Positions 1-22,000 of a stretch of DNA of 28,265 nucleotides are shown here, in pieces. The stretch is taken from positions 1 to 28,265 of the IMG/VR virus record IMGVR_UViG_3300020472_000132. One strand, 5' to 3'. The stretch comes from a virus. How positions within the stretch are numbered: position 1 is the stretch's first letter; each line of letters starts with the position of its first letter. The notes beneath the pieces are model-generated. The model was not told where the DNA came from, did not search any database, and saw nothing but the letters and a program-made list of their open reading frames with translations. The position numbers and the translations under genes are program-made.

Positions 1-1947
1 CTGACTTGCAGCGTATTCAAATGCATATTTAGCAACCATGTCAACTGCGTGCAATCTAGCAAGCTTAGAAGACTCTGCGTCTCCTACTCCATTGTTCCTA
101 AGTTCTTTAAATTTATCAACAAAAGAATATCTGAACATATGTTTTCTTAAAAAGTTTTCAGTAACTCTTTGCAATACCGCTCCTTGACCAGCAGCTGATG
201 ATAAAATAGAATCAAAAGTTCTCCAAGCTTTTCCTTCTTTATATTGCAATACATAATTGCCTTGAGCATTCTCTCTTAATTCTATGTTTTTTGTTTTTAC
301 ACCTTCAGTTGGCAGCAATCCTTCAGTAAAAATAGGAGATGCCATATCTTCAAATTTAAATCCTTGTTCTTCCTCAGCTTCTCTAACTTTCTGTCTAATT
401 TCTTTATTTTCAAATTTATTCCAATTACTAAGGTATCTTGTAAATGCTAAATTACCGACACCTTGAACATAGTATAGACCAGATAATGTATTTCTAGTTG
501 CTGTACCAACACCAAATCCAAGTTTAGATAAAAATTGAAACCCAGTTAAAGTTCTTACCATCTTATTAACCCAGCCTGGCCTGTCCTTATGTCCATTTTC
601 AGCTAATTTAAAAGTATCAGCAACGTAATCAGACATAGCCTCAGCTGCTTTACCATCTTTAGGAAGCCCTTTCATTCCCTCAAAGTAAAGAGATTTTAAA
701 TGCTGAGCTTTGTTAAATGTAATAGCATCAATAGAATATTTTCTCAGAACTGTAATTGGATTCTTTAAATAATTTTCATATGGAGCAGATTTTCTAAATC
801 TAGCAGATGAAGGAGTTCCCATACTTCCTCTCATTTCAGTTAAAATACCAGCTAATTCTGAAATATCTTTATCTGCATTTTTATACCCTTCTTTATCAGC
901 TCTTTCCATTACTCTTTCTAAATGTAAAAATCCTTCAGATAAATAATGAGGAAAGTAATTACCATTTTTCTTTCCGTCTTCTATAGCTTTTATTTCTTCC
1001 TTTATTTTATCAAGGTATCCCTTAACTTTTTTACCCATACCAGTTTGTAAAGCAGATTTTTCCATTGTTCCTAAATATCCAAGTTGAATAACATCGGAAT
1101 GTTTTTTAAGCCCAGATACAAGAACATTGCCCATATCGTTTAAAAGAAGTCTTGATATTTTACCAGCTTCTACTATATGATTAGAAAATGGAACTCTTTT
1201 ACCATAATCAAGGCTATTAGGGTCTTCAATAAGTCTACCTTCGGATATTTCTTCAGGAGTTTTTTCTAAATATTCTACAAGTTCTTTTAAAACTTCGCCA
1301 CCCTTAGAACCTAAAAGTTCTTTTATGTCTTTTACAATTTTATTAGCTCTTCCAGATTTGTAATCAGAAGTTGGGTTATTAATTTCTAAAACTAATTCAT
1401 TTTCAAGTTTTTCTAATTGCCTTGTTTCTTTTATACCCGGTATAAGACTGCTTCTATTTGGATTTCTAGATAGAATTTCAGTTCTTAATAATTTAGATAT
1501 TGCTATATGTGAACTAAGATATTTAGTGAATTGATTTCTTTCATAATTTGTAATAAAGTTTATTTGCTTATTTAAATGATTAGTGATAGCATATTTTTGC
1601 ATCACACCTCTTCTAACAAATCCATATTTTTCTAAAAAATTAAACTTAGGATTGTCAAGTTTTTTTGATTCCCTTACAATTTCATTTTTTATCCTTCTAA
1701 AATCTCCACTATTAAATCCAGTATATGATTCAATAGCTGGCTTATAAGTACCTCTCCATACTATTTCATCAAACATTTTCCTACCTAAATTGTCTTCAGC
1801 TTTGCCATAATGCTTAGTAATAGAATCACCTAATTTATAATCTTTACCCTCAAAATTAATTTTTTCACCATTAAATAATCTTTTCATTAATCTAAGATTA
1901 TCTGATGTAAATTGTTCTTTCTCAGATAGTGTTACACATTTAGGCAT
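1..1947 (-). CDS. Giant virion-type protein, 3' end beyond window (at least 649 codons)
   Basis: The frame is open from ATG at 1947 to the window edge with no stop, giving 649 codons. The start abuts the TAA of the 2960-aa gene and has AAGGA seven bases upstream. The chain is Lys/Glu-rich and mostly predicted helical, with no signal peptide. A glycine- and aromatic-rich hydrophobic stretch lies around residues 465-505 (FLSKLGFGVGTATRN, then LSGLYYVQGVGNLAF), near a GxGTATRNxLSGLYY pattern that I remember only loosely from large phage structural proteins. No catalytic motif was recognised in the visible part. Its place directly after the polymerase-like giant gene suggests a co-expressed, co-packaged internal virion protein. 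That role is inference. The C-terminal part is unseen and could hold the defining domain. Confidence 0.85.
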   Translation of the reverse strand, partial: MPKCVTLSEKEQFTSDNLRLMKRLFNGEKINFEGKDYKLGDSITKHYGKAEDNLGRKMFDEIVWRGTYKPAIESYTGFNSGDFRRIKNEIVRESKKLDNPKFNFLEKYGFVRRGVMQKYAITNHLNKQINFITNYERNQFTKYLSSHIAISKLLRTEILSRNPNRSSLIPGIKETRQLEKLENELVLEINNPTSDYKSGRANKIVKDIKELLGSKGGEVLKELVEYLEKTPEEISEGRLIEDPNSLDYGKRVPFSNHIVEAGKISRLLLNDMGNVLVSGLKKHSDVIQLGYLGTMEKSALQTGMGKKVKGYLDKIKEEIKAIEDGKKNGNYFPHYLSEGFLHLERVMERADKEGYKNADKDISELAGILTEMRGSMGTPSSARFRKSAPYENYLKNPITVLRKYSIDAITFNKAQHLKSLYFEGMKGLPKDGKAAEAMSDYVADTFKLAENGHKDRPGWVNKMVRTLTGFQFLSKLGFGVGTATRNTLSGLYYVQGVGNLAFTRYLSNWNKFENKEIRQKVREAEEEQGFKFEDMASPIFTEGLLPTEGVKTKNIELRENAQGNYVLQYKEGKAWRTFDSILSSAAGQGAVLQRVTENFLRKHMFRYSFVDKFKELRNNGVGDAESSKLARLHAVDMVAKYAFEYAASQ

Positions 1948-4900
1948 TTAACATTCCTTCTCAATTCTTTTAACCAAATCTTTTTCTCCAATGTAATACT
2001 CTAAATTGTTTTGTATTTTTTCATAAGTACCACGTTCTTTTACAAATTGTAAATCACCATTTTCATCATATCTTTTTCTAGCTCTAGATGACATAGATTC
2101 AATTTCAGTTCCATAATGATGTCTAAACGCTGGGTCGTGTAAATAACCTCTATCTAATGCTAAGTCAAACAATGGGTCATCTAATTGCTTTGATTTTCTA
2201 CTTCTATATAATTGCGATGTAAATGCATCTGTAACTGTATCTGACAATACATTATCGTACCTTCTTCTATAATCTTTTCCATATATACTTGCTATTCTAT
2301 TTAAAGTATCAGCATGCCCATTATTAACCAACCATCTACTCATAGCTTTAAACATTCTTTTATTAACTTTTACAACTGGCAACTTAGCTCCACCAGCTGT
2401 GACATATGAATTAAAAACTGGGTCAGGTTTCATCATGAATCTAACTAAATCAGTAACTTGATTGTTGTCTAAATTAATTTCAGACTTTCTTCTCTCAGGA
2501 TTAGTCCACCTATCCATAAAGACTTTAACCATAGCATCTTCTAAAGCTCTATCTAGAACCCAATTTTCTTGAGCATTTGGATTCTTTTTATTAAATCTAA
2601 ATGTTTCAGAAGCCATCGCTCCAAGAGTTTTCTGTAAATTTTCTTTTTCTAAAACAAATCTAGACATTTGTCCTTCATTTCTAAATCCTAAATGACCTAT
2701 TTGAACATCTCCAGTAGCCTCAAGCATAGCCCACCCGTCAAGAGCTTCACTTGTTTTAATAGGTTGACTAGTGATTGGATTTTTCATAACGTAATAATCA
2801 CCTTTGCCATACCATTTTCTTGAACCAGATTTAACATATCCGACTTCTTGAAACCTTGTTAATCCATTTTGATTTTTTGTTTTCTTATATACAAACATTA
2901 AATTATTTCCATTATTGTTTATATATCCACCTTTAGAACTTTTCGACAAATTAAATCTTCTTATATTTAATCTCTCACTGGTTTTTTTAAAATCTTGAGG
3001 ATTCTTTATAACTTTTTGAACCATAGAACTTTCCAAATCCCTAAGATGCTCAGATATGTGTTCTATATGTGTAATCTTTCTTTTTGCTCTATGATGACTT
3101 AAATCAAGATGTTTACCTGCTTTATTAACAAAGTTTTGCAAACTCTGTTTTTCAATTCTAAATGATTCTTGCAATAGAGCATATCTCTCTAAGCTTTTTA
3201 CACCAATATCTTGACCATTTCTTAAATTTTTATAAAATTTATCATACCATCCACCTTCAAATATCCCATCTGATTCATTTAATTTTTCAGCAATTCTAGA
3301 ATCACCGCTAATAGATAATAATATATCTAAATTTTCTATTGCTCTACCAGCTTCCATAAAAGCCTTATCTCCTTTTGGAGACCTAGATTGAGTAAACCCA
3401 TTAAAACTTTTTTTACTTTGACTTAATTCCATTACCAATCCACCAGCAACTGTTGAACCCATAAATTCACGATTCATAGTAGGAGGAATGTTAAAAATTG
3501 ATTCAGTTGGAATTAAACTTTTATATCCATTTTCCTTTCTAAATGCTTTAAGCTTTTTCATATCCAATGTTAAGTCTGCATATTTTTTACCAAAAAACAT
3601 TCTATTAAGAGCTTCTCTCATTTTTACATTTTCAGGGCTTGTTCCTCTATATTTAAAAGACAATGAATCGTATATATATTTATTTGGATTAGCTGCAAAA
3701 TCGTAATAATCACCTCTAATTTTTTGTATCTCTTCAGAGCTTGGTGGCCTTCTCCCAGATACATCAAAAACATCAGTTAATAATCTCTGTGGTTTATTCA
3801 TTTGTCGTATAAACTCAAGGATAGAAGACTTTAATATTTCTTGTTGTTGAGGGTTTTTAATCTTATCAAATCCTTTAAAAAATCCATTAAAGTTTTCCAT
3901 TCCAAAATTCTTTTCCATTTCTGGAGTAAGATTATAAAGCTCAGGTTTTTCTCCAAATAATAAATATCTTGTAATTTGCTCTGATGGAGAAGCTCCTGCG
4001 AAATTAGGTCTCTTAGCGGAGTCTATTATAGATTGTAAAACATTTTTATATGTTTGAAGAAATTCAGAAACTTCCTTTGTTCCTTTTGCGTGAGTAATTC
4101 CCATATCTTTAAGTGATATAGTAAAATTATCAGCTGTTTCATTAAATCTTAATATACCAGATAAAGAAGTTGACAACTTTTTAACTGCTCCAAAGTTTGC
4201 CTTAGATTGTAAAAACATTTTATTATGAGCATCAAACGAATCCCCATGCTGAGTTCTACTTCCAGCTCTTCCAGAACTGTTGCTTGTTTCAAAAAAGTTT
4301 AAAGGAGTTTCTATTGATGGAAATTGATATGCTTCTATTGAATGGCCTGCAAATTTATGCAATTCTTTACCCATTTTACTTGGAGACATATTGTAACTAA
4401 ACATAGCATCAACATCAAAATCAGCTTGATGTATTTGAGCTATATCAAAAACATTTACGCCAACTATATTACCTTGTTCCCTTCTGTAGAATCCTTCCAC
4501 TCTATGAACTCCAACATCTCCACCTAAATTCGGCATTCTCAATGAAAGAGAACTAAGATATATTCTATTGTTCTTGTCAAACTGATTTTTAAGATTATGG
4601 TCTCTTAGATTATTATGTAGTTGCCCAAAGAGAGGTTTATTATATTCAGTTTCCATACTTTTTTGAATATTTTCTATCTTATTTATTTCTTGTTGAATAT
4701 TTCTATCAGTTATTTTAGCCTCTCCAAGAGGGTCATATAAAACCCATTCGCCTTTTTCTTTTCCTAATCTAATATCTCTTCTAGTTTTTGATTTAACTGA
4801 AGGTGATGATATTAAATATTGAATAGTATCAAAATTATTTATAACTGCATCTTTTCCAAATCCATCCTCATGAGATAATTTTTTACCACCAGCTTTAATA

Positions 4901-7900
4901 AGTTCCTTTACGCCAGTGTTAGGATTTTCTCTATAGATAGGAATAGTTCCATTTACATATGGAGTCAATATCGAATAAGAAGCTCCAGTCGCCTTAGGTT
5001 TTCTAAGATTAGACATTAAATTATCAAGCATCATTCTTTTTAATTCTTGATGTATTATAGGTGAGTTAGGGTCTATACCAGATTCAAGAAGTTTAACTGT
5101 TAATCCTTGACCAGAATCTTCAATTAATTCATTTTTTTCTTTAAGAGCATTTGTTAAATGCCTTGCAACTCCATGCCTGTCCCCAGCTCCTAATACTAAT
5201 TCTCCAAGATTTCTTAATCCATCATTTAATGTTTCAGAATACCTTCCAAATTCTTTATAGCTTTGAAATCCTTCTTTATTTAAAAAGTCAGAAAATGAAT
5301 ATGTAACACTTGTTAATCCTTTTCTATCTTCAACTTTGCCAAGATATATATCTTCAAGCTTCATAACAGCTTCGTGTTTTGATTCAGATTTCCCAATAGC
5401 TATTTCAGCTAAGTTCTCTACATTTTTACTTGATAAAGAATCGTATTCACCTTTGTTTATTTCAACCATTTCTTTATTAAATGCTTTAGCAGCTGATTCA
5501 GTTGTTAGTATATCAACACCTTTTTTGCCCATACTATCAGCTATAACTGGGTCGTATATAAAATTTGTTTTTAATAAAATGCTTTCACCTTCCCTACTAA
5601 ACCAACCAGTAGGTTTTACACCAGCTGTTCCATACTTATTGCCTTCCTCAGTCCTTCTTCCCTTCATTAAATATAACAAATCAGCTAATCTATGACTAAT
5701 AAATGATTGAGCGTTTATTGAAGAACTATTCAAACTGCTTAATCTTTTCTCAGCTAATTCAACCATTTCCTTATTATATCCCTCGTATCCATTATCTTTC
5801 ATTCTTTTAAGTTCTTCTAGAACAATTTTTTCAGCAGATAGAGGGCCTGTTAATTTGCCATTTGAATCTTTCATTTCATCTCTGATTCCAACAACTTTTA
5901 AATTTGGATTATCTAAATAAGATGATATAGACTCGGATTGTCTTTCGTTTAAAATGGCTGGTTCTTGTTTAGCATCTAACACTATTTCTCTTAAAAAACT
6001 TTCAGAAGCTTGAACCTTAGCTCCAGTTGCTTCAGCTAATCCAACATATTTAAAAAATGATGAAGACAATGTTTTAAGTTGCCCTTCATTTTTAGACGCT
6101 GCAACCATTTCATCAAACTTATTAGAAGAAACTTTATCAAAATACAAAGCTCTTACCATAGATTTTATTTCTTGATTAGTAGCTGACTTTTCTGTTCTTT
6201 CTAATATATGGTCATATAAATTTTTAAAATTATTTATTTCAGAACGCATTCCATTTGCTTCGTACCATTCTAATTTAGAATTATACCATTCTCTAAATTT
6301 AGTATTTAATACCCCAGCTGCTTGGTCTCTTGGAATTACTAATGAACTATTTTGACTAACAACTATTCTTACAGGTTCTCTAAATGGTTCAATGTTTACA
6401 TCATTCCTATTCTCAATTTCCAATCCTTTTAAATGCCTTAGTATAGTTTCCTGAGATGAATCTTGAATTTTTGCCCGTTGTATAATTTCTTCAATTTTTG
6501 GAATAGTGTTTATATCTACTTTTCTACCTTGATGAACTCCAGTGCTTTCTAAATACATAACATCTATACCAAGTTCTTTCATTTCCCTCTTAAAATCATT
6601 TATTAAACCACTGCCAACAGTTACTTTATCTAATGATAATGTAGGCTTGCCTCCAAATCCAACTGACAATCTCAAAGAACCTACAGATTCTCTTCCCATT
6701 TGATTGTTAATTATTTGAGGATAAACAACTTGTAAAAATTCACTCCATTCTCTTTGATACCCTTCAGTTCCCTCACCATGTTTATTAATAAGGGCTTCAG
6801 ATACGTCATTTCTTATATCTTGTTTTCTTTGTTGAAGTATTTCCCTATTTAATTTATTCGGTTCAGATTCAAATACGTTTAAAGATTCTTTTAAAGACTC
6901 TAATCTAGAATTAAAAGCATCATGCTTCATTGCATCGCTATATCTTCCATATTTATTAGATAATCCAGAAGCTGAAAGAGCTATTTCTCCTTTTTCAACA
7001 TTGTAGGATGCGTAATCATCCATAGCCTCTCTTATTTTTTCTTGAGTTTCAAAGTATTTTTCTTCACTTACGGAAGATTTCCAAGCTTGATGAGATGATT
7101 CTAATATTTTTATAGCCTCTCCAATCCTATTGCTTTTAGCGTATATTCTAAGCATAGCATTTAAATCTCTTGCTTCTCTAGATTCTGTTTCAAGGGGAGT
7201 GTCTTTAAAATGATTTCTTAATCTAGAAAGAAGTCTTCCCTTTCTTTCCTCAAATGCAATCCTATCCCTGCTATTGTTTTGCAAATCAAATATAATTTCT
7301 TCTAATACTTTATTAGTCCTTCCTAAAGTAGATGCCTGCTCAAGCATTATGTTATTAATAGCTTCAGCTGGACTTTTAACAGCGTTTTCTATTCTTGATT
7401 GTTGTTGCTCAGAAACCAATCCCTCAGCTAAAATATCTAAAGTCTTTCCCCATTCCAATTCTCTAATCAATTCTGGTGGATTATTTTTTAATACCTCTAT
7501 TTGTTTTAAAGCATTATCAAGTCTTTCTGGGCTATCCATTAACTGTCTTTCCCTTTCCCCTACTTGACCTTCTTCTCTAGGTTTATATATTATATCAAAT
7601 AACTTTGCTATACCTTGTACACTATCAACATCCCGATGAATAGATTCTCTTATCATATCTATTTCTTGAAGATTTCTTTTTTGGAATCCAGCAGTTTCTC
7701 TATGAATAGCATTTATAGACATATCTATGTTGTCTAATCTTTCAAAAGAAGCAGTCTTGGAAAATTCTATTTGACTACCAATTAAAGGGTCTATTTCTTT
7801 AACAATTTCATCATACTTCCTAATAAATTCTTTATATTCTGGACTGGTGCTTGAATATTGCTCTGACAAAGCTTGCTCAACTGATTTTCTATCAAGAATT

Positions 7901-10830
7901 TCTATTACATAATTATCATTACCCTTTGGTTCAATAGAGCCTAATTGCCAATCCCTAATTGATTCAATTAATGTAACATGCTTAGCAGTCAAGTTTGGAT
8001 TCTTTAAAATACCTCCATATATTTCTCTTTTTATACTTTCAACGCTATATCTGTCAAATGTATGTCCTTCCATTTTTAACATATCTATTAAATTTTCAGC
8101 ATGCTCAAAAGGAATTCCGTCTTTATCTATTTTAAGTTTTCCATTAGACCTTCCGACTCCCCATACATCAGCTAACATTGTTAATTGTTCTTCAACTTCA
8201 GTTCTTTTTTCAGATTTTTCAGCCCATTCTTTGTCGGACATCTTTTCTGGTTTAGTAACTGATAGTATATTACCCTCTCTAATAAAATCTTTAGGAGAAT
8301 TCTCACCCAATACTTCAGATAGAACTTCATGTAATCTAGATTCTCTTTGAGTAAAATCAGAAGTCCTTCCCTGAGCTACATTAACTATTTCTGTTTGTTT
8401 TTGTTTTCCCTTATACTGTTTGATTGAATTTAAAAATCCATTTTCATGTATTTCTATCATACCTTTTGGGTAATGCTCGCCAAAATTATTTACTCTTAAA
8501 CTTTCAACTACATTATTAGCTCTTTCTGATATATTACTAGACAACGATTCAAGATTCTCAACTTGCTCAACGTGTCTTCTTTGTCCTACCTGTTGTGGTA
8601 TAAAATCCACTAATCCCATTTCAGCTAATATCTCAACAGTACTTCTAAAATTGTTTAATTCATTATATTTTGGGTCAGTATAATGTCTTCCAAATAACCT
8701 ACCATCATCGTGAAGTCTAGCCATTCTAATTGGCCTATCTATGTCTATTGTTTCTGGCCTTTCAACTTCTAATCCTATTTTTTCAGCAATGTCCATAACA
8801 TATTCTAAATATGTCTTTGCAGAATTTTCAATCGCTGTTTTTTCTACCTCAGTTTTCCATCTATGGATATTCTGTTCAGATAATTTTTCACCTTTAAAAT
8901 GACCATCTAAAAGTTCAATAGATTCTAATTTATTTTTAATATTAGTTAATTCAGATAATGTAAAATCTTCAAGTCTTACATTTTTATCATGCTGACCTTC
9001 TTCGTGTAAAGACCTCGCTTTAAAAGCTTTGTCATATATTTCAAAAGCTTCTAATACAATTTTAAATTCCTGAGTTAATGTTTGAGTATCTTTAACAGCA
9101 GTTGCTGGAGCTTCCCAATCTTTTCCTCTTTGTTTTCCACCTGCTTGTTCAAAAATCATTTCTAATGATTTAATATTTTCATTTCCAAGAACTCCTGTAT
9201 ACACAGATGCTTCAGACATGTCTTCTCTAAATGAGGAAGCCCATACTTTATAATTTGAAGAATCCATACCAAGATATTCTAGAACTCTTAATCTTTCTTC
9301 AGTACCACTACCAACATGTTTATGAGTTGTTTGAACTATTGGTTTTTTTATTTTTGTAAAATAGTTACCTACTAAAAAATGAGCTAATAATTCTTCTGGT
9401 TCATGATGCCCCAATCCTCCAACATTTACAATATCCATAATAGCACCAGAACTAAAATAAAGACCTCCAACAAGCATTCTTCCAGTGGAAGCTACAAAAT
9501 CTTCACCAGCTTCTTTGTAAAACCCTTTCCACATTTTATCCACATCAACTTTATTGTATATTGCTTTTATAGCTGCTATAGCTTCGTTTCTATCTATATC
9601 AACATCGCCTGGTCTTCTCCTAGATGCTGATTTACCAATTCCAAGCATAGATTTTGAATCGGATAAATAACTATCTTTACTTAATATTCTCAAAACTGAA
9701 TTTGCTTCTTCAGATGTCATTTTATCAAAATCACCTTGTTTCATCTTCTTTTTAACAGATGGTATTACTCTCCATAATTTTTTAACTTGCTGAGCTATAT
9801 GAACTTTACCACCACCACCTATAGCTTCTACACCCGGTAAGAATAGTGAAAATACAACAGCATCTTTAATTGCTTTACCCGGTTCAAAATCTTTTTCTCC
9901 AGCTATTGCATAAACGCCATCTTGAATTAAATTGTATGTTGCAAAATTCATACTTAAATCAGCCCATTTAGCAGCGTACCCAGCTATCATTTCTTTATGC
10001 TTATTAGTTAATGTTCTGCCTAATTTATTTTCAACATATCTACCAAGAGTGTTAATGTGAACACCTCTCGATTTTAATCCATCAGTTGTTGCCTTTACAA
10101 TTTGGGCTAGGTCTTCAGTTTTAGCAGTTGGAAAAGCTTGTTTTAAAGATTTTGCCAATCCACCCATTACTTGAGCTTCTACTTTGTTAATAGCTTCTAA
10201 AGAAAGTTCGTATGAATTAATTGCACCGGGAGGAGGAGGCCCACCTCTCCAATTTGCAAACCATTTACTTTCTCCCTTAATAATAGGTTCATCAAATCCT
10301 TTCTTTAAAGCTTCTGAAACTTTATCTACAGAACCAACATTACGAGCTCCTTCTGCTTTTGCTCCTAATTCGATAGCTTTAGAAGTAACTCTACCAGTCC
10401 CAGCTTTTATTACTTGACTACCAGCTAGCCTTATACCCTTACTAACCCATTTCATAGGGCTTATAAATCCAGCAGCTTGGCCAAATACTTCTCCCATTTT
10501 AGCAACACCTTCAGTCCCCTCTTGATAAGGTTTCCATCCAGTTGCCCCTTCTAATAGAAAACCGGGTATATCAAAAAGAGCAGTGTCTACAAATCCCCAT
10601 ACACCAGCTCCGACTGCGTGATGTAATCCACTAGCTTTATCCCCTTCTTTAAGATGACTTACATCATAGGGTTTTTTATCTCCTACGCTTGCAAATAAAT
10701 CTTCATATAAAGTTCTTTGAGTTTCTTCACCCTCTCTCTGAACTGGCAATGAGGGAGTTGTTGTAGATATTTTTTCTCTATCTCTTCTTAAATCATCAAG
10801 AAGTCTTTGAGTTAATGTGTCTAATGCCAT
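1948..10830 (-). CDS. 2960-aa giant protein with DFDVD motif; candidate virion RNA polymerase (double-psi beta-barrel type)
   Basis: Candidate injected RNA polymerase that would transcribe early phage genes from a single chain. Seen: DFDVD at residues 2137-2141 preceded by QA and followed by AM; RMP at 2098-2100; a VGVHRVEGF stretch between them. In E. coli beta' the order is RQP (R425), about 35 residues, then NADFDGDQM, so order and spacing agree (39 here). The three Asp would hold the catalytic Mg2+. A possible first barrel with candidate lysines lies near 1930-1995 (KKLSHEDGFGK at 1983-1993), and a possible bridge-helix-like segment at 2203-2225. Residues 1-500 hold glycine-rich hydrophobic stretches (about 70-95, 323-340, 450-490) and GGPPPPG near 196-202; the middle is helical and Glu/Lys-rich. 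Known family: gp66 of crAss-like phage phi14:2 is a virion-packaged single-chain polymerase. G-to-V in DFDGD is a departure from the cellular form, though I recall DFDV/ID in giant phage proteins. The start overlaps the previous stop as TAATG. The gene call is near certain; the function is about 0.65. Confidence 0.93.
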   Translation of the reverse strand: MALDTLTQRLLDDLRRDREKISTTTPSLPVQREGEETQRTLYEDLFASVGDKKPYDVSHLKEGDKASGLHHAVGAGVWGFVDTALFDIPGFLLEGATGWKPYQEGTEGVAKMGEVFGQAAGFISPMKWVSKGIRLAGSQVIKAGTGRVTSKAIELGAKAEGARNVGSVDKVSEALKKGFDEPIIKGESKWFANWRGGPPPPGAINSYELSLEAINKVEAQVMGGLAKSLKQAFPTAKTEDLAQIVKATTDGLKSRGVHINTLGRYVENKLGRTLTNKHKEMIAGYAAKWADLSMNFATYNLIQDGVYAIAGEKDFEPGKAIKDAVVFSLFLPGVEAIGGGGKVHIAQQVKKLWRVIPSVKKKMKQGDFDKMTSEEANSVLRILSKDSYLSDSKSMLGIGKSASRRRPGDVDIDRNEAIAAIKAIYNKVDVDKMWKGFYKEAGEDFVASTGRMLVGGLYFSSGAIMDIVNVGGLGHHEPEELLAHFLVGNYFTKIKKPIVQTTHKHVGSGTEERLRVLEYLGMDSSNYKVWASSFREDMSEASVYTGVLGNENIKSLEMIFEQAGGKQRGKDWEAPATAVKDTQTLTQEFKIVLEAFEIYDKAFKARSLHEEGQHDKNVRLEDFTLSELTNIKNKLESIELLDGHFKGEKLSEQNIHRWKTEVEKTAIENSAKTYLEYVMDIAEKIGLEVERPETIDIDRPIRMARLHDDGRLFGRHYTDPKYNELNNFRSTVEILAEMGLVDFIPQQVGQRRHVEQVENLESLSSNISERANNVVESLRVNNFGEHYPKGMIEIHENGFLNSIKQYKGKQKQTEIVNVAQGRTSDFTQRESRLHEVLSEVLGENSPKDFIREGNILSVTKPEKMSDKEWAEKSEKRTEVEEQLTMLADVWGVGRSNGKLKIDKDGIPFEHAENLIDMLKMEGHTFDRYSVESIKREIYGGILKNPNLTAKHVTLIESIRDWQLGSIEPKGNDNYVIEILDRKSVEQALSEQYSSTSPEYKEFIRKYDEIVKEIDPLIGSQIEFSKTASFERLDNIDMSINAIHRETAGFQKRNLQEIDMIRESIHRDVDSVQGIAKLFDIIYKPREEGQVGERERQLMDSPERLDNALKQIEVLKNNPPELIRELEWGKTLDILAEGLVSEQQQSRIENAVKSPAEAINNIMLEQASTLGRTNKVLEEIIFDLQNNSRDRIAFEERKGRLLSRLRNHFKDTPLETESREARDLNAMLRIYAKSNRIGEAIKILESSHQAWKSSVSEEKYFETQEKIREAMDDYASYNVEKGEIALSASGLSNKYGRYSDAMKHDAFNSRLESLKESLNVFESEPNKLNREILQQRKQDIRNDVSEALINKHGEGTEGYQREWSEFLQVVYPQIINNQMGRESVGSLRLSVGFGGKPTLSLDKVTVGSGLINDFKREMKELGIDVMYLESTGVHQGRKVDINTIPKIEEIIQRAKIQDSSQETILRHLKGLEIENRNDVNIEPFREPVRIVVSQNSSLVIPRDQAAGVLNTKFREWYNSKLEWYEANGMRSEINNFKNLYDHILERTEKSATNQEIKSMVRALYFDKVSSNKFDEMVAASKNEGQLKTLSSSFFKYVGLAEATGAKVQASESFLREIVLDAKQEPAILNERQSESISSYLDNPNLKVVGIRDEMKDSNGKLTGPLSAEKIVLEELKRMKDNGYEGYNKEMVELAEKRLSSLNSSSINAQSFISHRLADLLYLMKGRRTEEGNKYGTAGVKPTGWFSREGESILLKTNFIYDPVIADSMGKKGVDILTTESAAKAFNKEMVEINKGEYDSLSSKNVENLAEIAIGKSESKHEAVMKLEDIYLGKVEDRKGLTSVTYSFSDFLNKEGFQSYKEFGRYSETLNDGLRNLGELVLGAGDRHGVARHLTNALKEKNELIEDSGQGLTVKLLESGIDPNSPIIHQELKRMMLDNLMSNLRKPKATGASYSILTPYVNGTIPIYRENPNTGVKELIKAGGKKLSHEDGFGKDAVINNFDTIQYLISSPSVKSKTRRDIRLGKEKGEWVLYDPLGEAKITDRNIQQEINKIENIQKSMETEYNKPLFGQLHNNLRDHNLKNQFDKNNRIYLSSLSLRMPNLGGDVGVHRVEGFYRREQGNIVGVNVFDIAQIHQADFDVDAMFSYNMSPSKMGKELHKFAGHSIEAYQFPSIETPLNFFETSNSSGRAGSRTQHGDSFDAHNKMFLQSKANFGAVKKLSTSLSGILRFNETADNFTISLKDMGITHAKGTKEVSEFLQTYKNVLQSIIDSAKRPNFAGASPSEQITRYLLFGEKPELYNLTPEMEKNFGMENFNGFFKGFDKIKNPQQQEILKSSILEFIRQMNKPQRLLTDVFDVSGRRPPSSEEIQKIRGDYYDFAANPNKYIYDSLSFKYRGTSPENVKMREALNRMFFGKKYADLTLDMKKLKAFRKENGYKSLIPTESIFNIPPTMNREFMGSTVAGGLVMELSQSKKSFNGFTQSRSPKGDKAFMEAGRAIENLDILLSISGDSRIAEKLNESDGIFEGGWYDKFYKNLRNGQDIGVKSLERYALLQESFRIEKQSLQNFVNKAGKHLDLSHHRAKRKITHIEHISEHLRDLESSMVQKVIKNPQDFKKTSERLNIRRFNLSKSSKGGYINNNGNNLMFVYKKTKNQNGLTRFQEVGYVKSGSRKWYGKGDYYVMKNPITSQPIKTSEALDGWAMLEATGDVQIGHLGFRNEGQMSRFVLEKENLQKTLGAMASETFRFNKKNPNAQENWVLDRALEDAMVKVFMDRWTNPERRKSEINLDNNQVTDLVRFMMKPDPVFNSYVTAGGAKLPVVKVNKRMFKAMSRWLVNNGHADTLNRIASIYGKDYRRRYDNVLSDTVTDAFTSQLYRSRKSKQLDDPLFDLALDRGYLHDPAFRHHYGTEIESMSSRARKRYDENGDLQFVKERGTYEKIQNNLEYYIGEKDLVKRIEKEC

Positions 10831-11909
10831 TATCTAGGTGAAAGCAGGTCTAACCCCTGTCCTATATCGAATTTTTTCCTTGTTAATCCGTACTCACCCC
10901 TTAAATCAATATTGAGTTGTTTTAAATCAGCTATATCTCTTCCAAGAGCGTCTACTCTTTGATTAATTGCAGATTTTATAGCATCTTGATGTTCAACTCT
11001 TTCAGCTAATGCAGTTGGTATAGACTGACCCAAACTAGTAAGGTCATTTGCTTGTTGGATATACTCATCTAAAGCATCTAAATCTTTAAAGCTATCATTA
11101 AGATGTTGTTGCTTTGTTTGTAATTTAGACTCAACCATTCTAAGTTGCGAAGCTGGGTCATTACTCCATTCAACTTCAGTTTCTTTGCTAGTAGGTGGTT
11201 GTTTCGTTTTTACTTCTTTTTCTAAATTCTCAATAGCTTTTTGGGTAAAGGTAAAATCTTTTTGTAGCTGATAATCTCCTTTCATAAAACCTTCAGTCTC
11301 TTCTAATAAATCAGCTTCTACTTTTTGAGCAGAAGTCATGCTATTTAATACGTCCATAACTTCTTCATTGTCTCTCATATCAGCAGATATATAATTCATC
11401 TTTTTTAAAGCTTCTATTAATTTATAATCCTTAGTCCCCTTTCTAGGCATGGTACCCTTATTAGCCATCTCACCAATAGGAGATAATAACTCCATTAATG
11501 GGTCAGCATCTTTAGCGGTGTATAAAGCCCAAGTTGCAGATACAAGTCGACTAGCTGTTTCTTTATCTATGCTATCCTTTCCTAATACCCCCGGCCAATA
11601 TGATTTATCATACATAGCATCAACAGCGTCTGTCATTCCTGTGTCTTTATCATGATGAGATGAATAAAGACCAGCTAACCCAGATTGAGTAATAAATTTA
11701 TTAGCAGCTTTTAACTTTAAACTGTCATTAGTCCCTTTCATTATCTCCAAGTTCTTTGCCATTGTTTGCATATCAGTCATTCTTTTTGACTGGGAATATT
11801 GCATTATTTGTAAAGCTTGCTGAACGTCAGATTTATCTTGAGCTTGCTTATATTGTAATATTCTATTTAAAGATTGTAATACGTCAGAACCGTATGGATT
11901 TACTGCCAT
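10830..11909 (-). CDS. Internal virion-type coiled-coil protein (359 aa)
   Basis: No family recognised. The protein is hydrophilic and largely helical, with Gln/Lys/Asp-rich stretches. The N-terminal 60 residues (ILQYKQAQDKSDVQQALQIM region) and the C-terminal half (from about residue 225, many heptad-like Leu/Ile positions) look like coiled coils. There is no signal peptide or TM segment. I chose ATG at 11909 because it forms a TAATG overlap with the 220-aa gene; an ATG four codons upstream (11921) gives 363 aa but overlaps by 13 bases. The stop overlaps the start of the giant polymerase-like gene (TAATG). Position between the nozzle and the giant proteins, together with helical composition, suggests an inner-core or ejection protein analogous in place to T7 gp15. 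That comparison rests on synteny, not sequence. Confidence 0.85.
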   Translation of the reverse strand: MAVNPYGSDVLQSLNRILQYKQAQDKSDVQQALQIMQYSQSKRMTDMQTMAKNLEIMKGTNDSLKLKAANKFITQSGLAGLYSSHHDKDTGMTDAVDAMYDKSYWPGVLGKDSIDKETASRLVSATWALYTAKDADPLMELLSPIGEMANKGTMPRKGTKDYKLIEALKKMNYISADMRDNEEVMDVLNSMTSAQKVEADLLEETEGFMKGDYQLQKDFTFTQKAIENLEKEVKTKQPPTSKETEVEWSNDPASQLRMVESKLQTKQQHLNDSFKDLDALDEYIQQANDLTSLGQSIPTALAERVEHQDAIKSAINQRVDALGRDIADLKQLNIDLRGEYGLTRKKFDIGQGLDLLSPR

Positions 11910-12571
11910 TATGAGAACCATCCTTGATTAGCTTGTTTGTCAGCTAATTCTTTTTCCATCATTAATCTACTTTTTTCACCTCTTATTCTAGACTTTTCAG
12001 TTTCTTGAAATTCTGTTATAGTAGCCATGTCTTCTCCAAGTTTACCCATAAGTCCTTCCATTCCAGATGTATGCGTAGCTGCAATTCTTTTATATTGAGT
12101 AGATTCTTTTTCTTTGGCTGTCCCAGATACTGCCATATTACTTTTTTTAACAATGTTTTGTAATTCTTTATTTGTGTCGGCTATTGTAGTATCCATTTGA
12201 AAAGAAAAATCTCTTTTGTCTTTTTCATGTTGTTGAAGTGCTAAATCTTTTCTAGCTCCAACTGCAGTTTCTAAATTCTTTTCAGCGGATTCTAAATCAT
12301 TAATACCTTGTTGAGCATATTTAGAAGTTGTTCTTGCAGTACTTTTTTGAGATTGATTTTGTTTATGAGTTTGATATAGACTTAAACCAAATCCCAAAGC
12401 TGTAAAAGGGTCAAAGTATTCTTTTAATCCAGTCTCAGGGTTAGTTGTTCCAGAGCCGCCTAAAGATTTAAGTAAATCCCTTTCTTGTTTATTGACATGA
12501 ACTAATTCAGTATCTCCAAATCTTCCCTTTTTTGCAGTATTGGATAAATGTTTAGTTGCTATCGTTGCCAT
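11909..12571 (-). CDS. Internal virion-type protein with RFGDTELVHV...GGSGTxNPxTGL N-terminus (220 aa)
   Basis: Residues 17-50 carry RFGDTELVHV and then GGSGTTNPETGLKEYFDPF, a motif I remember from phage virion proteins in which GDT-(hydrophobic)-H is followed by a GG-GT-NPxTGL block. A short glycine/Phe hydrophobic stretch (FDPFTALGFGLSLY) follows. The rest, from about residue 70, is Lys/Gln/Glu-rich and helical. The architecture (short N-terminal hydrophobic part, long helical tail) resembles small ejection proteins such as T7 gp14, but no homology is claimed. AAAAGG lies six bases upstream of ATG, and the stop of the preceding gene is two bases away. The last codons form TAATG with the next gene. 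It is probably part of the DNA-ejection assembly. Confidence 0.85.
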   Translation of the reverse strand: MATIATKHLSNTAKKGRFGDTELVHVNKQERDLLKSLGGSGTTNPETGLKEYFDPFTALGFGLSLYQTHKQNQSQKSTARTTSKYAQQGINDLESAEKNLETAVGARKDLALQQHEKDKRDFSFQMDTTIADTNKELQNIVKKSNMAVSGTAKEKESTQYKRIAATHTSGMEGLMGKLGEDMATITEFQETEKSRIRGEKSRLMMEKELADKQANQGWFS

Positions 12572-12573
12572 TG

Positions 12574-13299
12574 TTAACCTTTTTTATTAAGACCACTGGT
12601 CTGTATAACATTTTCGCCTTCTTCATCTGGATTATAATCAGTTGTGTTTAAAATATCTTCATTCCAATCTACATCATCAAACATTGTATCAACATCTAAA
12701 TCTAAATCATTATCTTCATTTTTAACTTTTTTATCATTTGAAAGATTGGATAAAGACTTTTTTATTTTATCTACAAAATTTGGTTTATTTTTATTTGGAT
12801 TATCTTTTTCATCACTTACTGGAGTAACATCCCCACCAGATAAATCTACAGATTCAACATTTTGTTTTAATTCACTTGCTCCTAAAATTTCATCGCCCTT
12901 TATTACGATACCTGCCCTAGATAAGCTATGTACTTTACCAGATTCATCTTGAAAATGATACAACTTTTCTTCCCCACTTAAATAATCCCAAGCTTTCTTT
13001 AAAACATTTCTATCATCTGGTAATTCAACTTCTTTTATTCCTTCGCTTTTTACATATGCGTCTTTTCTTTTTTCAAATTTCTTTTTTTCTTTAATGCCTC
13101 CATGTATAGTAGAACCAAGTTCTAAAGCAGTACCCACAGTTGCAAACATTGCTGATAAATTTTGTTGTTTTATCTGTCCAAGAGCTTGGGATTTATCAAT
13201 ACCCGTTCTTGCAGTTGAAAGAGCATCCGCTAATGAAGAGCCGTATTTACCAGCACTTTTACCAGCAGCTAGATGTGCAGAATATAAATTTTTAGCCAT
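12574..13299 (-). CDS. Virion-associated hypothetical protein, acidic C-terminus (241 aa)
   Basis: Not assigned to a family. The first 70 residues are Ala/Gly/Ser-rich, with a moderately hydrophobic helix (LSAMFATVGTALELG) before a basic KEKKKFEKRKD segment. The middle (about 95-145) looks globular (WDYLSGEEKLYHFQDESGK). The last 65 residues are strongly acidic and low in complexity (NEDNDLDLDVDTMFDDVDW), consistent with a disordered tail. No clear Shine-Dalgarno is visible before this ATG; the upstream sequence is AT-only for about a dozen bases. A 14-codon mini-ORF spans the gap and ends inside this start (see 13292-13336). Context suggests an inner virion or ejection component. Confidence 0.85.
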   Translation of the reverse strand: MAKNLYSAHLAAGKSAGKYGSSLADALSTARTGIDKSQALGQIKQQNLSAMFATVGTALELGSTIHGGIKEKKKFEKRKDAYVKSEGIKEVELPDDRNVLKKAWDYLSGEEKLYHFQDESGKVHSLSRAGIVIKGDEILGASELKQNVESVDLSGGDVTPVSDEKDNPNKNKPNFVDKIKKSLSNLSNDKKVKNEDNDLDLDVDTMFDDVDWNEDILNTTDYNPDEEGENVIQTSGLNKKG

Positions 13300-17581: not shown

Positions 17582-17727
17582 TACGACTCCTTTATTTTCT
17601 TTGTTTTTAAATATAAATAATAAATCTGAACTGCAAACATTATACACATTAAAATGCCTGACAATAAATCTGTCCAATATACAAATCCTAATCCTGTTGT
17701 CATCCCAGTTGCCCTTAAACTATCCAT
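17581..17727 (-). CDS. Single-TM small protein, holin-like (48 aa; short gene)
   Basis: The frame from ATG 17727 to TAA 17581 encodes MDSLRATGMTTGLGFVYWTD, then a hydrophobic segment (LLSGILMCIMFAVQIYYLYL) of about 20 residues and a basic tail KTKKIKES. One TM helix with a positive C-terminus suggests N-out/C-in insertion. Both ends are TAATG overlaps with neighbours, strong evidence that it is a real gene. Size and topology fit small phage holins or other membrane accessory peptides. No sequence family is claimed. Confidence 0.8.
   Translation of the reverse strand: MDSLRATGMTTGLGFVYWTDLLSGILMCIMFAVQIYYLYLKTKKIKES
17587..17593 (-). promoter_or_regulatory. Ribosome binding site deciding the 58-aa gene start
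   Basis: AAAGGAG on the minus strand, five bases from ATG 17581, lying within the last codons of the 48-aa TM gene. It rules against the longer reading from 17677. Confidence 0.7.
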
Positions 17728-18044
17728 TAATGTTTCCCATTTATTCTACTTAAAGAACCATCTATTCTTGAAACTTGATTATCTAAATCATTTATTTCTT
17801 TTGTTAATGCATCAAACTTTCTATCTAATTTATCATCCGATTGATTCCATCTTCCAATAAGTTTAATGACCATCGACTCCATATTTTCAAGAGTTTCTGA
17901 TTGTCCCCTATTTTCTGTTTTTAAATCTTCTAATACTTCTTGTTGCTTAGCTGCTTTATTTGACATTTGCACTACTAAATATACAAACATAGCACCAACA
18001 ACACCAATCATGCCAGCTTCACCGTATAATGCTAAAAAATCCAT
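17727..18044 (-). CDS. Membrane-anchored coiled-coil protein (105 aa)
   Basis: Residues 10-27 (EAGMIGVVGAMFVYLVVQMS region) form one TM helix, followed by about 75 residues of charged helical heptads (QQEVLEDLKTENRGQSETLE and onward, then IDGSLSRINGKH). The layout (short N-terminus, TM, long soluble coiled coil) fits holin-associated or inner-membrane spanin-like proteins, and also tail accessory proteins. Both ends are TAATG overlaps with the neighbouring membrane genes. I see no amidase, lysozyme or peptidase motif. Function is inferred from topology only. Confidence 0.82.
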   Translation of the reverse strand: MDFLALYGEAGMIGVVGAMFVYLVVQMSNKAAKQQEVLEDLKTENRGQSETLENMESMVIKLIGRWNQSDDKLDRKFDALTKEINDLDNQVSRIDGSLSRINGKH

Positions 18045-18340
18045 TATTTCTTTTTCCTACCTAATGCTTTTTCATACCATTTTAATTCTTCTTCTAATTC
18101 AGCAAATCTTTCTTGTTCTTCAGCAATATGTTTTTGAACTAATTCTGCTATTTGAATATCAGACTCATAAACCTTTTTTTCAAGGTCAATAATCCTCGTT
18201 TCAATTCTCCAATAACCATAAACCAAAGTTGCGACAAGAACGCATCCTTGTGCAAGCCATTTAAGATTAATGCTAACAATGGCGTTGTCATCAAGAACGG
18301 TAGCGCGATAACTTCTAGCGGTATCTGGCTTTCCACTCAC
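18044..18340 (-). CDS. Membrane-anchored coiled-coil protein, i-spanin-like topology (98 aa, GTG start)
   Basis: From GTG 18340 the protein begins MSGKPDTARS, has a TM helix near residues 28-47 (LKWLAQGCVLVATLVYGYW), then a Glu/Lys-rich coiled coil to the end (IIDLEKKVYESDIQIAELVQ, then EERFAELEEELKWYEKAL). GTG was chosen because it forms a GTGA four-base overlap with the 45-aa lipoprotein-like gene and GGAGGT lies three bases upstream; an upstream TTG reading (18367) would give 107 aa. The topology resembles the inner-membrane partner of spanin pairs. The lipoprotein-like gene directly before it strengthens that reading, but gene order is the reverse of lambda Rz/Rz1. Confidence 0.78.
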   Translation of the reverse strand: MSGKPDTARSYRATVLDDNAIVSINLKWLAQGCVLVATLVYGYWRIETRIIDLEKKVYESDIQIAELVQKHIAEEQERFAELEEELKWYEKALGRKKK

Positions 18341-18474
18341 TTCACCTCCCATCCGCATACAGACCAACCAGAGTCACACCCTGTTAATATAGTCATTACA
18401 AAAATAACCAATAAAAACAGGATGTACCCTGTAATCATCTGATGCTCAGGTTTAGTATTTTTCCACGAAAACAT
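18337..18474 (-). CDS. Lipoprotein-like membrane peptide (45 aa; short gene)
   Basis: The frame from ATG 18474 to TGA 18337 encodes a charged N-terminus (MFSWKNTKPEHQ), a hydrophobic stretch (YILFLLVIFVMTI), and LTGC at residues 30-33, which fits a lipobox with Cys33. After it comes a short DSGWSVCGWEVK tail with a second Cys. If processed, the mature peptide would be only 13 residues, with Asp at +2, an inner-membrane retention signal in enteric bacteria. Alternatively it stays as an uncleaved TM peptide. The stop overlaps the next gene (GTGA). The ribosome site is weak. It may be a spanin- or holin-type lysis peptide. Confidence 0.7.
   Translation of the reverse strand: MFSWKNTKPEHQMITGYILFLLVIFVMTILTGCDSGWSVCGWEVK
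18344..18349 (-). promoter_or_regulatory. Ribosome binding site for the GTG-started 98-aa gene
   Basis: GGAGGT on the minus strand, three bases from GTG 18340 and inside the lipoprotein-like gene. The spacing is short; another GTG four bases further opens the out-of-frame 62-codon reading, so the site alone does not settle the choice. Confidence 0.5.
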
Positions 18475-19092: not shown

Positions 19093-22000
19093 TTATAATT
19101 CCTGTGTTACTTCCCAAACTGATGTAATGTACCAGTCAATAGTACTGCTTGGGTCAACACTTGCTTTTATGTGTAAACTTACTTTATCTAATGCACCTAC
19201 TGATGGAGTAGCACTAAAACCAGCTTCTGATAGGGTGAAAGCTGTGTTATTACCATGAGACCCAGCACTCGTTTGAGTAGCCACAGTATCATCAGTTGTG
19301 TCACCATCATCTTGTTTCTTTAAAAATATCTTAAATGTTGCTGCTGCATTTGAAATTGTTTCTGGTCTTAAAATAATTTTCTTTAATGTCATAGCAAATG
19401 GAGCCATGTAAGCAACTTGAGATGCATTAGCATTTGTTTGCTCACCTGTTCCAGCCCAAGGAATAGCGTGTTCAGTTGTTCCAATATCATCAGAAAAGTT
19501 GTGAATAAAAGTAACTAAATATTTACCTTCTATTCTTCCTGATGTGCTAATAGCTCCATTAAACTCAACATCGTCATCTTTAATTCTCATTGCGATGTCA
19601 CCACCAGTATAGACATCTATCATGTCATTGGCATTGTAGTGTAAATAAGTATCACCACCAGAACCATCAAATCGTAGATAAGAATCAACTGATGATGTAC
19701 CTGCTAAACTAAGTGTAGTCCCAGATAAATGAACATTACCTTTAGCATACATAGCCTTATCACTTCCACCCCATTCAACTACACTTGCCCAAGAACCACT
19801 TTCCTTAGACTGAATATCAAACATACCATCTGTCTCAGCAGATAGCCTCCAATTATCAGCATTGTTATCATTGTTATCAGCTTGTATGTAAACATAGGCT
19901 GCTGTGTCATTAGCTGCTTTGACTACTAACGAACCCGAATAAACGCTTAATTGCCCATAAAACATAGCGTGTTGTGATGAGTCTATGGTTAAAGCAGTTG
20001 TGCCATCTGTAACAAAGTCTTGTCTATCTGTTTGAAATCCTATATAATTATTACTATCTCCACTATGGACAATGTTAGCAGGTATATATAAGTCTCCACT
20101 AAAAATAGCAGTTTGTGAAGAGTTAATTGATAATGCTTGTGTTCCACCTGTAGCAAACGCTAACCCATTTGCTTCAGTACGAAACATTCCAGTATCTGTA
20201 TCATCTTTAAATGAATAAGCAGGAGTAGCCAAGGCTCCTGAACCAACATTCATTCTTCCGTCTTGTGTATGGTGAGACTTACCATAAGATGAACCATCTA
20301 AACCTGCATTGCTTTGCCCTGCTGTTGTAGTATGCTCAAGAGTGTTTGCACTATATCCACCTTCACTACCAAACTCAACTGTTGTAGTTGATGTGAGAGC
20401 TTGAATATTGACCTCTAAGGTCATATCGTGGTTATAAGTACCTGTTGTTGCTTTCTTTAGAAATACATCAAAGTTTTCATTACCATCACTAACTATTTTT
20501 ATTTTTAATTGACTATAATCACCATTCCAAGACTTTAATTGAATATCTTGATAATGACTTACCATAATATCTATTACATGACTATGTAGATGCCCAGATG
20601 AGGACACGCCTTTTAATGTCATTTTTATAACATTAGTAAGTTGGTCACCAGTTACTTTACAAGCATGAAACCACTCATCAGCATCAAAGTTTGCTATAGT
20701 GGTAGTATAAAATTTGTGACCATTTAAAGTGACAGTATTGCTAAATGTCGCACTTTGGTCTGATGCAATAGTAACCGCAAGAGTACCAGCTCCACTTGTT
20801 CCACTATAAATCTCTAATTTACCACCATTATTTCCTCCATAAGAACGGATATAACCACCAAGATTAGTTCTACCTTCTCCACCTATTCTTTGGTTTCCAC
20901 TTGAATCTGCGTCCCCTATACCACCTGCATTTATATATAAACCATTAATAGTTCCTGAAGTTATCGAACCAGTAACTGTTAAATCATTTCCAATCCATAA
21001 ATCAGCACTATTGCTCAAATGCATTATCTTTGTTCCACCATCAATAGTCGCACTATTATGCCACCATTCAAATGGATTGTGACCTCCATTAGCATTTGAA
21101 TCTGCAATAAAATGCATAGTATCTGAATCAGTAGTAATGGCAGAATTAGTTCCACCTGCATTTATATTTAGATATGCCCCACCAAATGTAGAGTACCCAA
21201 GTTCATTAATTTGCAAAGCAGAAAAAGAAGAACTTGTACCAGCATCATTCATTGGCTGATATTTCATAATACCTTCTTCAAATACCCATCTTCCTGTCTT
21301 CTTACCACTCGCTGCACCAGTATCATTAAAGTAAAGACTTGATTCAACTGCATCCGTAATAATTAAATCAGCAGTAGTCTCAGTAATATCCCCTAAAGAT
21401 GTAGCACCTATAGTTACAGAACCATTCGGAGATATAGATAATCTTCTTGTAGTGGAACCACCAGAAGGCTTTGTCCATATTGAATACCAATCAGTTGAAC
21501 TTTGATATATTCTTAGTTCACCCGTACTATTCTCTACATAGGTATGAGTGCCATCATGCATCATTGTATAATCATTACCATGACCAACTCTTAGATATTT
21601 ACTATCAGCACTTACACCTGTATTACCATAAAAAGATGTAGTTCCTGAATCGGCTACTACCATTCTAGTAGCAGTAACTCCATCTTTAGTAGTTTGAAGG
21701 CATAAATTAGCAGATTGGGCTCCTGAACTAGCAAAATCTTCCGTTCTCTCAGAGAATATCTTAGCACCAGTTGCCCCAGCGTGTCTTAATCTAATTGCTA
21801 CTGTTTCATCTGTTGAGCCTGCAGCAGCACTATTATCAAGAATGAACTCTGTAGCAGCACCATCATTTGCTTGTACTGCATGAAGAATAGAACCTGGACT
21901 CGCAGTTCCAATGCCGACATCGCCACCGATTGTAGCACCATCCTGTGAAATGACAGTTGTATATTGACCATATCCACCAACATTAAGACTTCTAGTGTTT

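Follow-up and report, generated by a model that had tools for sequence, protein, structure and literature searches.

To our knowledge, injected polymerases of the cellular superfamily have been firmly shown in only a few phages, namely, the crAss-like phage phi14:2, phage P23-45, and giant phages. A giant virion RNA polymerase (RNAP) that is injected is also known from phage N4 (gp50). The nearest precedent for the protein studied here is gp66 of phi14:2 (PDB 6VR4), for which the GenBank record (KC821624, annotated Phi14:2_gp077) reports detection in virions by mass spectrometry; crAss-like gp66 is discussed in PMC7886860 and PMC8713982. In gp66 and its homologues, a single chain carries a beta-type barrel before a beta'-type barrel, as is predicted for our protein; in both, an RxP motif lies 39 residues before DFD[VI]D, lysines are conserved (with the same 15-residue gap in phi14:2), large extra regions are present, and the gene adjoins structural genes. 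The differences lie in the genomes, of ca. 52 kb in the phages described here and ca. 100 kb in those with gp66, and in an N-terminal extension of ca. 1440 aa that is peculiar to our protein. A gp66 homologue outside Crassvirales, annotated as a structural protein, is found in Flavobacterium phage Fpv1.

Other two-barrel enzymes are further removed. Thermus phage P23-45 gp96 (triad DFDGD) also joins a two-barrel RNAP to a giant virion protein, and its injection with the DNA has been proposed (PMC10770324); in contrast to our protein, its RNAP lies at the N terminus of the tape measure protein of a long-tailed phage, without significant profile similarity to the family described here. YonO of SPbeta, a non-virion RNAP of ca. 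100 kDa (PMC5467207), and P23-45 gp64, which is absent from virions (PMC10770324), share the single-chain two-barrel principle, but both are small; gp64 gave no significant match to our family, and YonO was set apart by its description. PHROG 25317, labelled "head protein," matches gp64 end to end (L039:35290-37140); since gp64 is a non-virion RNAP (PMC10770324), this family is mislabelled. Finally, QDE-1 and RDR2 also have two barrels in one chain and fall in the same clade as the phage single-chain RNAPs in a published dendrogram, but they are cellular, RNA templated in RNA interference, and were set apart by description.

We analyzed a stretch of 28,265 nt from an uncultured virus (IMG/VR record IMGVR_UViG_3300020472_000132), referred to here as the window. 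The first-pass annotation had pointed to an open reading frame of 2960 aa, which is indeed present; its strand, left out there, is the minus strand.

1948 to 10830, minus strand: gene of the single-chain RNAP candidate, 2960 aa, with residue 1 at 10830 and the stop codon at 1948 to 1950.
6511 to 10830, minus strand: N-terminal extension, residues 1 to 1440, conserved in homologues.

Within the extension, Gly-rich hydrophobic stretches occur near residues 75 to 93, 320 to 338, and 452 to 470, and perhaps this part has a role in ejection or membrane passage. Pfam, PHROG, and PDB sequence searches with the whole protein gave no usable match; one weak Pfam match, to DUF5694, was under its cut-off and was taken as chance. 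Searches with PF00623 and PF04997 also found nothing. This result is uninformative, because PF04997, a Pfam Rpb1 model, does not detect gp66, gp96, or gp64 in their records either; PHROGs fails on gp66 as well. Standard family libraries thus miss such enzymes. The kinship with gp66 is too distant for direct BLAST or HMMER detection, and the sequence comparisons with crAss-type RNAPs below are between profiles; the crAss-type set was gp66 of phi14:2 together with nine diverse homologues, of which eight come from Crassvirales and one from Fpv1.

The catalytic center of the beta' subunit was the starting point of the first-pass annotation, which had placed DFDVD at residues 2137 to 2141, with Ala before it and Met after it. 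The motif stands there, preceded by Ala2136 and followed, two residues after the last Asp, by Met2143.

4408 to 4422, minus strand: DFDVD, residues 2137 to 2141, predicted Mg-binding Asp triad of the beta'-type barrel (DPBB-A), conserved as DFD[VA]D in every homologue that covers the site.
4531 to 4539, minus strand: RMP, residues 2098 to 2100, corresponding to RIP of crAss-type RNAPs and RAP of E. coli beta'.
4351 to 5004, minus strand: predicted DPBB-A region, residues ca. 1943 to 2160, in which residues around 2092 to 2146 align with gp66 DPBB-A; its fold model is of low confidence.

The Arg of RMP, at 2098, lies 39 residues before the first Asp, as had been stated, and the spacing of 35 given for E. 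coli beta' also holds, but the E. coli motif ahead of DFDGD is RAP and not RQP. The spacing is 39 in the window family and in 10 of 10 crAss-type RNAPs, and 40 in the most distant homologue (L023). When the 2960-aa protein was shuffled, the pattern R.P.{33,37}[AG]D[FYL]D.D turned up in 1 of 20,000 shuffles, and the triad motif is kept in all 12 distinct relatives that cover the site. Comparison by hhalign of the DPBB-A profile of the family with the crAss gp66 family profile, a test that the first-pass annotation had asked for, gave a match for the DFDVD region, with a score of 41.8, a probability of 93%, and a pairwise E value of 2.7e-7, against scores of at most 20.0 in 100 column shuffles and 10.9 for the reversed profile. 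In this alignment, read by eye, RMPNLGGDVGVHRVEGFYRREQGNIVGVNVFDIAQIHQADFDVDAMF pairs with RIPNQGQSSNDPLQIVGILPEAMGDTIVAYTEIPTKTGSDFDIDKMY free of gaps. The Asp triad with its upstream RxP that marks single-chain two-barrel RNAPs is found here both as an invariant motif and as a profile match to gp66 DPBB-A.

A search for a second barrel with two catalytic lysines before residue 2098 had been proposed, and an upstream segment with conserved lysines does match the profile of the gp66 partner barrel.

5386 to 5748, minus strand: predicted beta-type barrel (DPBB-B), residues ca. 1695 to 1815, with the invariant Lys1739, Lys1754, and Lys1782, within the model part that aligns with 6VR4.
5614 to 5616, minus strand: Lys1739 (GVKP), candidate catalytic lysine, invariant in 14 sequences, counterpart of the K in QPxK of crAss-type RNAPs.
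5569 to 5571, minus strand: Lys1754 (ILLK), candidate catalytic lysine, invariant in 14 sequences, proposed counterpart of the K in YxKxS of crAss-type RNAPs.
5749 to 6210, minus strand: region ahead of DPBB-B, residues ca. 1541 to 1694, colinear with its gp66 counterpart (hhalign score of 30.3 versus at most 14.6 in shuffles, at a stated probability of only 8%).

With the triad region removed, DPBB-B scored 35.9 against the crAss profile (shuffles, at most 20.2; reversed profile, 15.4), and a longer query raised the score to 42.4. The features shared between the window family and the crAss-type RNAPs are NAQ/DAQ, GVKP/QPxK, LLK/KxSxxxLL, and SAAK/SxVK, and the 15 residues between Lys1739 and Lys1754 equal the gap between Lys1012 and Lys1027 in phi14:2 gp66; here the register of Lys1754 was set by eye, that of hhalign being a few residues off. 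At the sequence level, a partner beta-type barrel with conserved lysines is thus found in the same chain and before the triad.

Chance likeness has to be weighed at this point, with DFDVD as an acidic loop of another kind and the protein as a large internal virion or tape-measure-like one, a view that could draw on the low-confidence loop model and on the failure of the Pfam, PHROG, and PDB sequence searches. The two profile matches already strongly disfavor it: two separate segments match, in the correct order, both barrels of a single known RNAP family, with scores well in excess of those of shuffles and of other phage families. When 15 protein families of the same phages (at least three members each) were compared with the crAss profiles, only the RNAP-candidate family stood out, with scores of 34.2 and 32.6 versus 20.9 and 24.1 for the next best family. 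The best fold match is also to the same RNAP (6VR4; see below), and we regard a chance resemblance as highly improbable. With gp96, gp64, and rpoC as hhalign targets there was no significant match, these being single sequences and weaker targets.

An AlphaFold model of residues 1440 to 2560, built with 14 sequences, was weak overall (mean pLDDT of 58.5), though good in parts. Its fold search against the PDB gave 6VR4, the phi14:2 virion RNAP, as the sole strong match (Z score of 11.2 over 184 residues; next chain, 4.2), and the aligned part, model residues 161 to 517 (1600 to 1956 of the protein), includes the conserved lysines. Plain Foldseek also ranked 6VR4 first, with an E value of just 0.033. 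A second model, of residues 1930 to 2300 (mean pLDDT of 53.8), retrieved unrelated helical and proteasome chains and no RNAP, and in both models most of the DFDVD stretch was below a pLDDT of 50. In the structural comparison that had been proposed, 6VR4 is thus the best PDB fold match, but the local fold around DFDVD is modelled with low confidence. Because the triad-region models are weak and the 6VR4 match spans the lysines, the triad barrel rests on sequence and the partner barrel on sequence plus fold. In sequence and fold, the protein is closest to gp66, by the family profile match and the top fold match. Among predicted viral structures (BFVD), the best matches were four unnamed proteins (A0A516L9L2, A0A516LHK8, A0A516MLC8, and A0A516M3R5; E values of 7e-13 to 3e-7), which are probably additional unannotated members of the same RNAP family; three weaker matches (4e-3 to 7e-3) came next, to a fifth unnamed entry, to a protein from a crAss-like virus, and to a structural protein from Azobacteroides phage ProJPt-Bp1.

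Scanning IMG/VR with the 94-aa motif region yielded nine homologous loci, and with profile scans 14 contigs other than the window were reached; two of them carry an identical protein (L003 and L004), and one has a truncated copy (L019). Complete homologues have 2837 to 3015 aa, with core identity to the window protein down to 22%. Viral scans that started from the most divergent member and from L018 added no relatives, and none were found among 50,697 phage records or, with the patterns used, in 84,980 bacterial and archaeal genomes. The most divergent homologue (L023:4711-13755, from IMGVR_UViG_3300006929_004375) has RIP and DFDVDKLFYY, as in crAss RNAPs; it looks closest to the crAss motif and may be a bridge between the window family and the crAss-type RNAPs.

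Lys1739, Lys1754, Lys1782, Arg2098, and Pro2100 are invariant across the family, as is the Asp triad where covered; a GNxV block is also conserved, and two more conserved blocks, LQSIID and DxSGRRPP, follow the triad. Between the barrels and downstream of the triad, hhalign scores were not above those of shuffles, with no match for the bridge helix and trigger loop region. These observations bear on the idea that an RNAP ancestor gave rise to a large ejected virion protein that no longer polymerizes. The long non-RNAP part would suit such a protein, activity is only predicted, and the bridge helix and trigger loop were not recognized; nevertheless, triad, RxP, and lysines do not vary even where core identity falls to 22%, as would fit selection on an active site, and we consider loss of activity very unlikely. 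The two-barrel active site is well supported. In it, the beta-type barrel (Lys1739 and Lys1754) and the beta'-type barrel (triad 2137/2139/2141) would together form one active site, at residues ca. 1550 to 2160, preceded by the extension of ca. 1440 aa and followed by a C-terminal part.

The surroundings of the gene are as follows.

1 to 1947, minus strand: next gene, 649 aa to the window edge (about 880 to 935 aa in relatives); PHROG search of a homologue gave no match.
10830 to 13299, minus strand: three preceding genes (363, 220, and 241 aa), candidate internal virion proteins, co-oriented and in a three-gene order that relatives keep.

The first of these is likely to encode another virion or ejection protein. 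Upstream, the first-pass annotation had named nozzle and internal virion genes; co-oriented genes do precede the RNAP gene, but these labels stay positional, since no convincing PHROG or Pfam match was obtained. In the 40- to 52-kb contigs of relatives, the late plan comprises TerL, an endolysin (in some), portal, capsid, tail and fiber genes, three small internal-virion candidates, the RNAP gene, and a gene of ca. 890 aa (899 aa), after which the early genes follow on the opposite strand (Holliday resolvase, DnaB helicase, DNA methyltransferase, and Cas4-like nuclease). The window corresponds to the late part of this plan. The early regions of two contigs, G005 (L026) and G011, hold a DnaB-like helicase, a Holliday resolvase, and a Cas4-like nuclease; no family A DNA polymerase was found among the homologous contigs searched for it.

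This arrangement is relevant to whether the enzyme is packaged. A two-barrel RNAP could instead be made during infection to transcribe middle or late genes, like YonO or P23-45 gp64, and some phages do use such non-virion RNAPs (PMC5467207; PMC10770324). However, the gene is embedded in the late structural cluster, where candidate internal virion genes of the same orientation flank it, and the early genes are on the other strand; a free enzyme needs no extension of ca. 1440 aa (YonO has ca. 100 kDa); and the nearest relative is a virion protein. A non-virion enzyme thus seems unlikely. A T7/N4-type single-subunit virion RNAP would agree in size and role with the N4 virion RNAP, but the motifs belong to the two-barrel superfamily, and PF00940 was not found in six homologous contigs (G001, G002, G004, G005, G011, and G012), with the T7 record detected as a control. 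A diverged N4-type enzyme could escape this model; even so, we give this explanation almost no credence. Among proteins of at least 150 aa in G004, G005, G011, and G012, no other DxDxD-type stretch had the RxP plus DFDxD context.

Given that both half-sites are conserved, that the gp66 profile and the 6VR4 fold match, that the gene sits in the late cluster, and that no T7-type RNAP was found, the 2960-aa protein is very probably a single-chain two-barrel RNAP. The first-pass reading, a single-chain RNAP of the cellular superfamily with gp66 as the nearest precedent, is supported by the two profile matches and the fold match. Its packaging is inferred from gene position and kinship with the virion protein gp66, and RNAP activity, injection, and the choice of early promoters are inferred as well. 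Most likely, the enzyme would be made late, alongside the structural proteins, packed into the particle, and ejected together with the DNA, and it would then transcribe the early genes, adjacent on the opposite strand. Since the protein holds both halves of the active site and is distantly related to a crAss-like virion RNAP, this small phage probably brings its own enzyme with which to begin transcription. We are fairly confident of the reading as a whole, that is, a DNA-dependent, single-chain two-barrel RNAP whose closest known relatives are the crAss-like virion RNAPs and which is packaged, ejected, and transcribes early genes. Direct repeats were screened for a recurrent early promoter, and sigma-70 consensus sites were compared with those in shuffles; neither gave a signal.

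As far as the open papers show, the protein belongs to a new and very diverged branch, as yet unannotated, of a kind of RNAP that is already known. Among the matches listed, those of TerL were best to Campylobacter and Vibrio phages (24 to 25% identity), and portal matches were only to Aeromonas phiA008 and a Caudoviricetes sp.; the best-scoring ones were not crAss-like. From these comparisons, the ca. 52-kb phages appear to be a group without close TerL or portal relatives among sequenced phages. We lean slightly toward the further proposal of a separate lineage of virion-injected, single-chain, cell-type RNAPs outside Crassvirales, apparently the sole RNAP gene of these phages, with which early transcription would start without the host enzyme. 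If small environmental phages carry a diverged branch of injected cellular-superfamily polymerases, the known spread of these enzymes would increase; the branch would also provide a smaller system to study and sequences that lie between single-chain RNAP families very far apart.

Elsewhere in the window, positions 19093 to 25344 hold a tail-fiber-like open reading frame of 2083 aa in which similar repeats of the type TGMYKPGTSQLYFSVAGTRKVRM recur many times, and positions 17727 to 18367 encode two adjoining small membrane-anchored proteins, the 105-aa one weakly matching Rz-like spanins (PHROG 739; E value of 5.5e-05). Beside the terminase genes of one relative (L024:2436-3506), an N-terminal zinc-ribbon-like stretch is fused to a DNA repair exonuclease domain (PHROG 7339), and zinc-ribbon-like N termini occur at the equivalent place in G004, G011, and G012.
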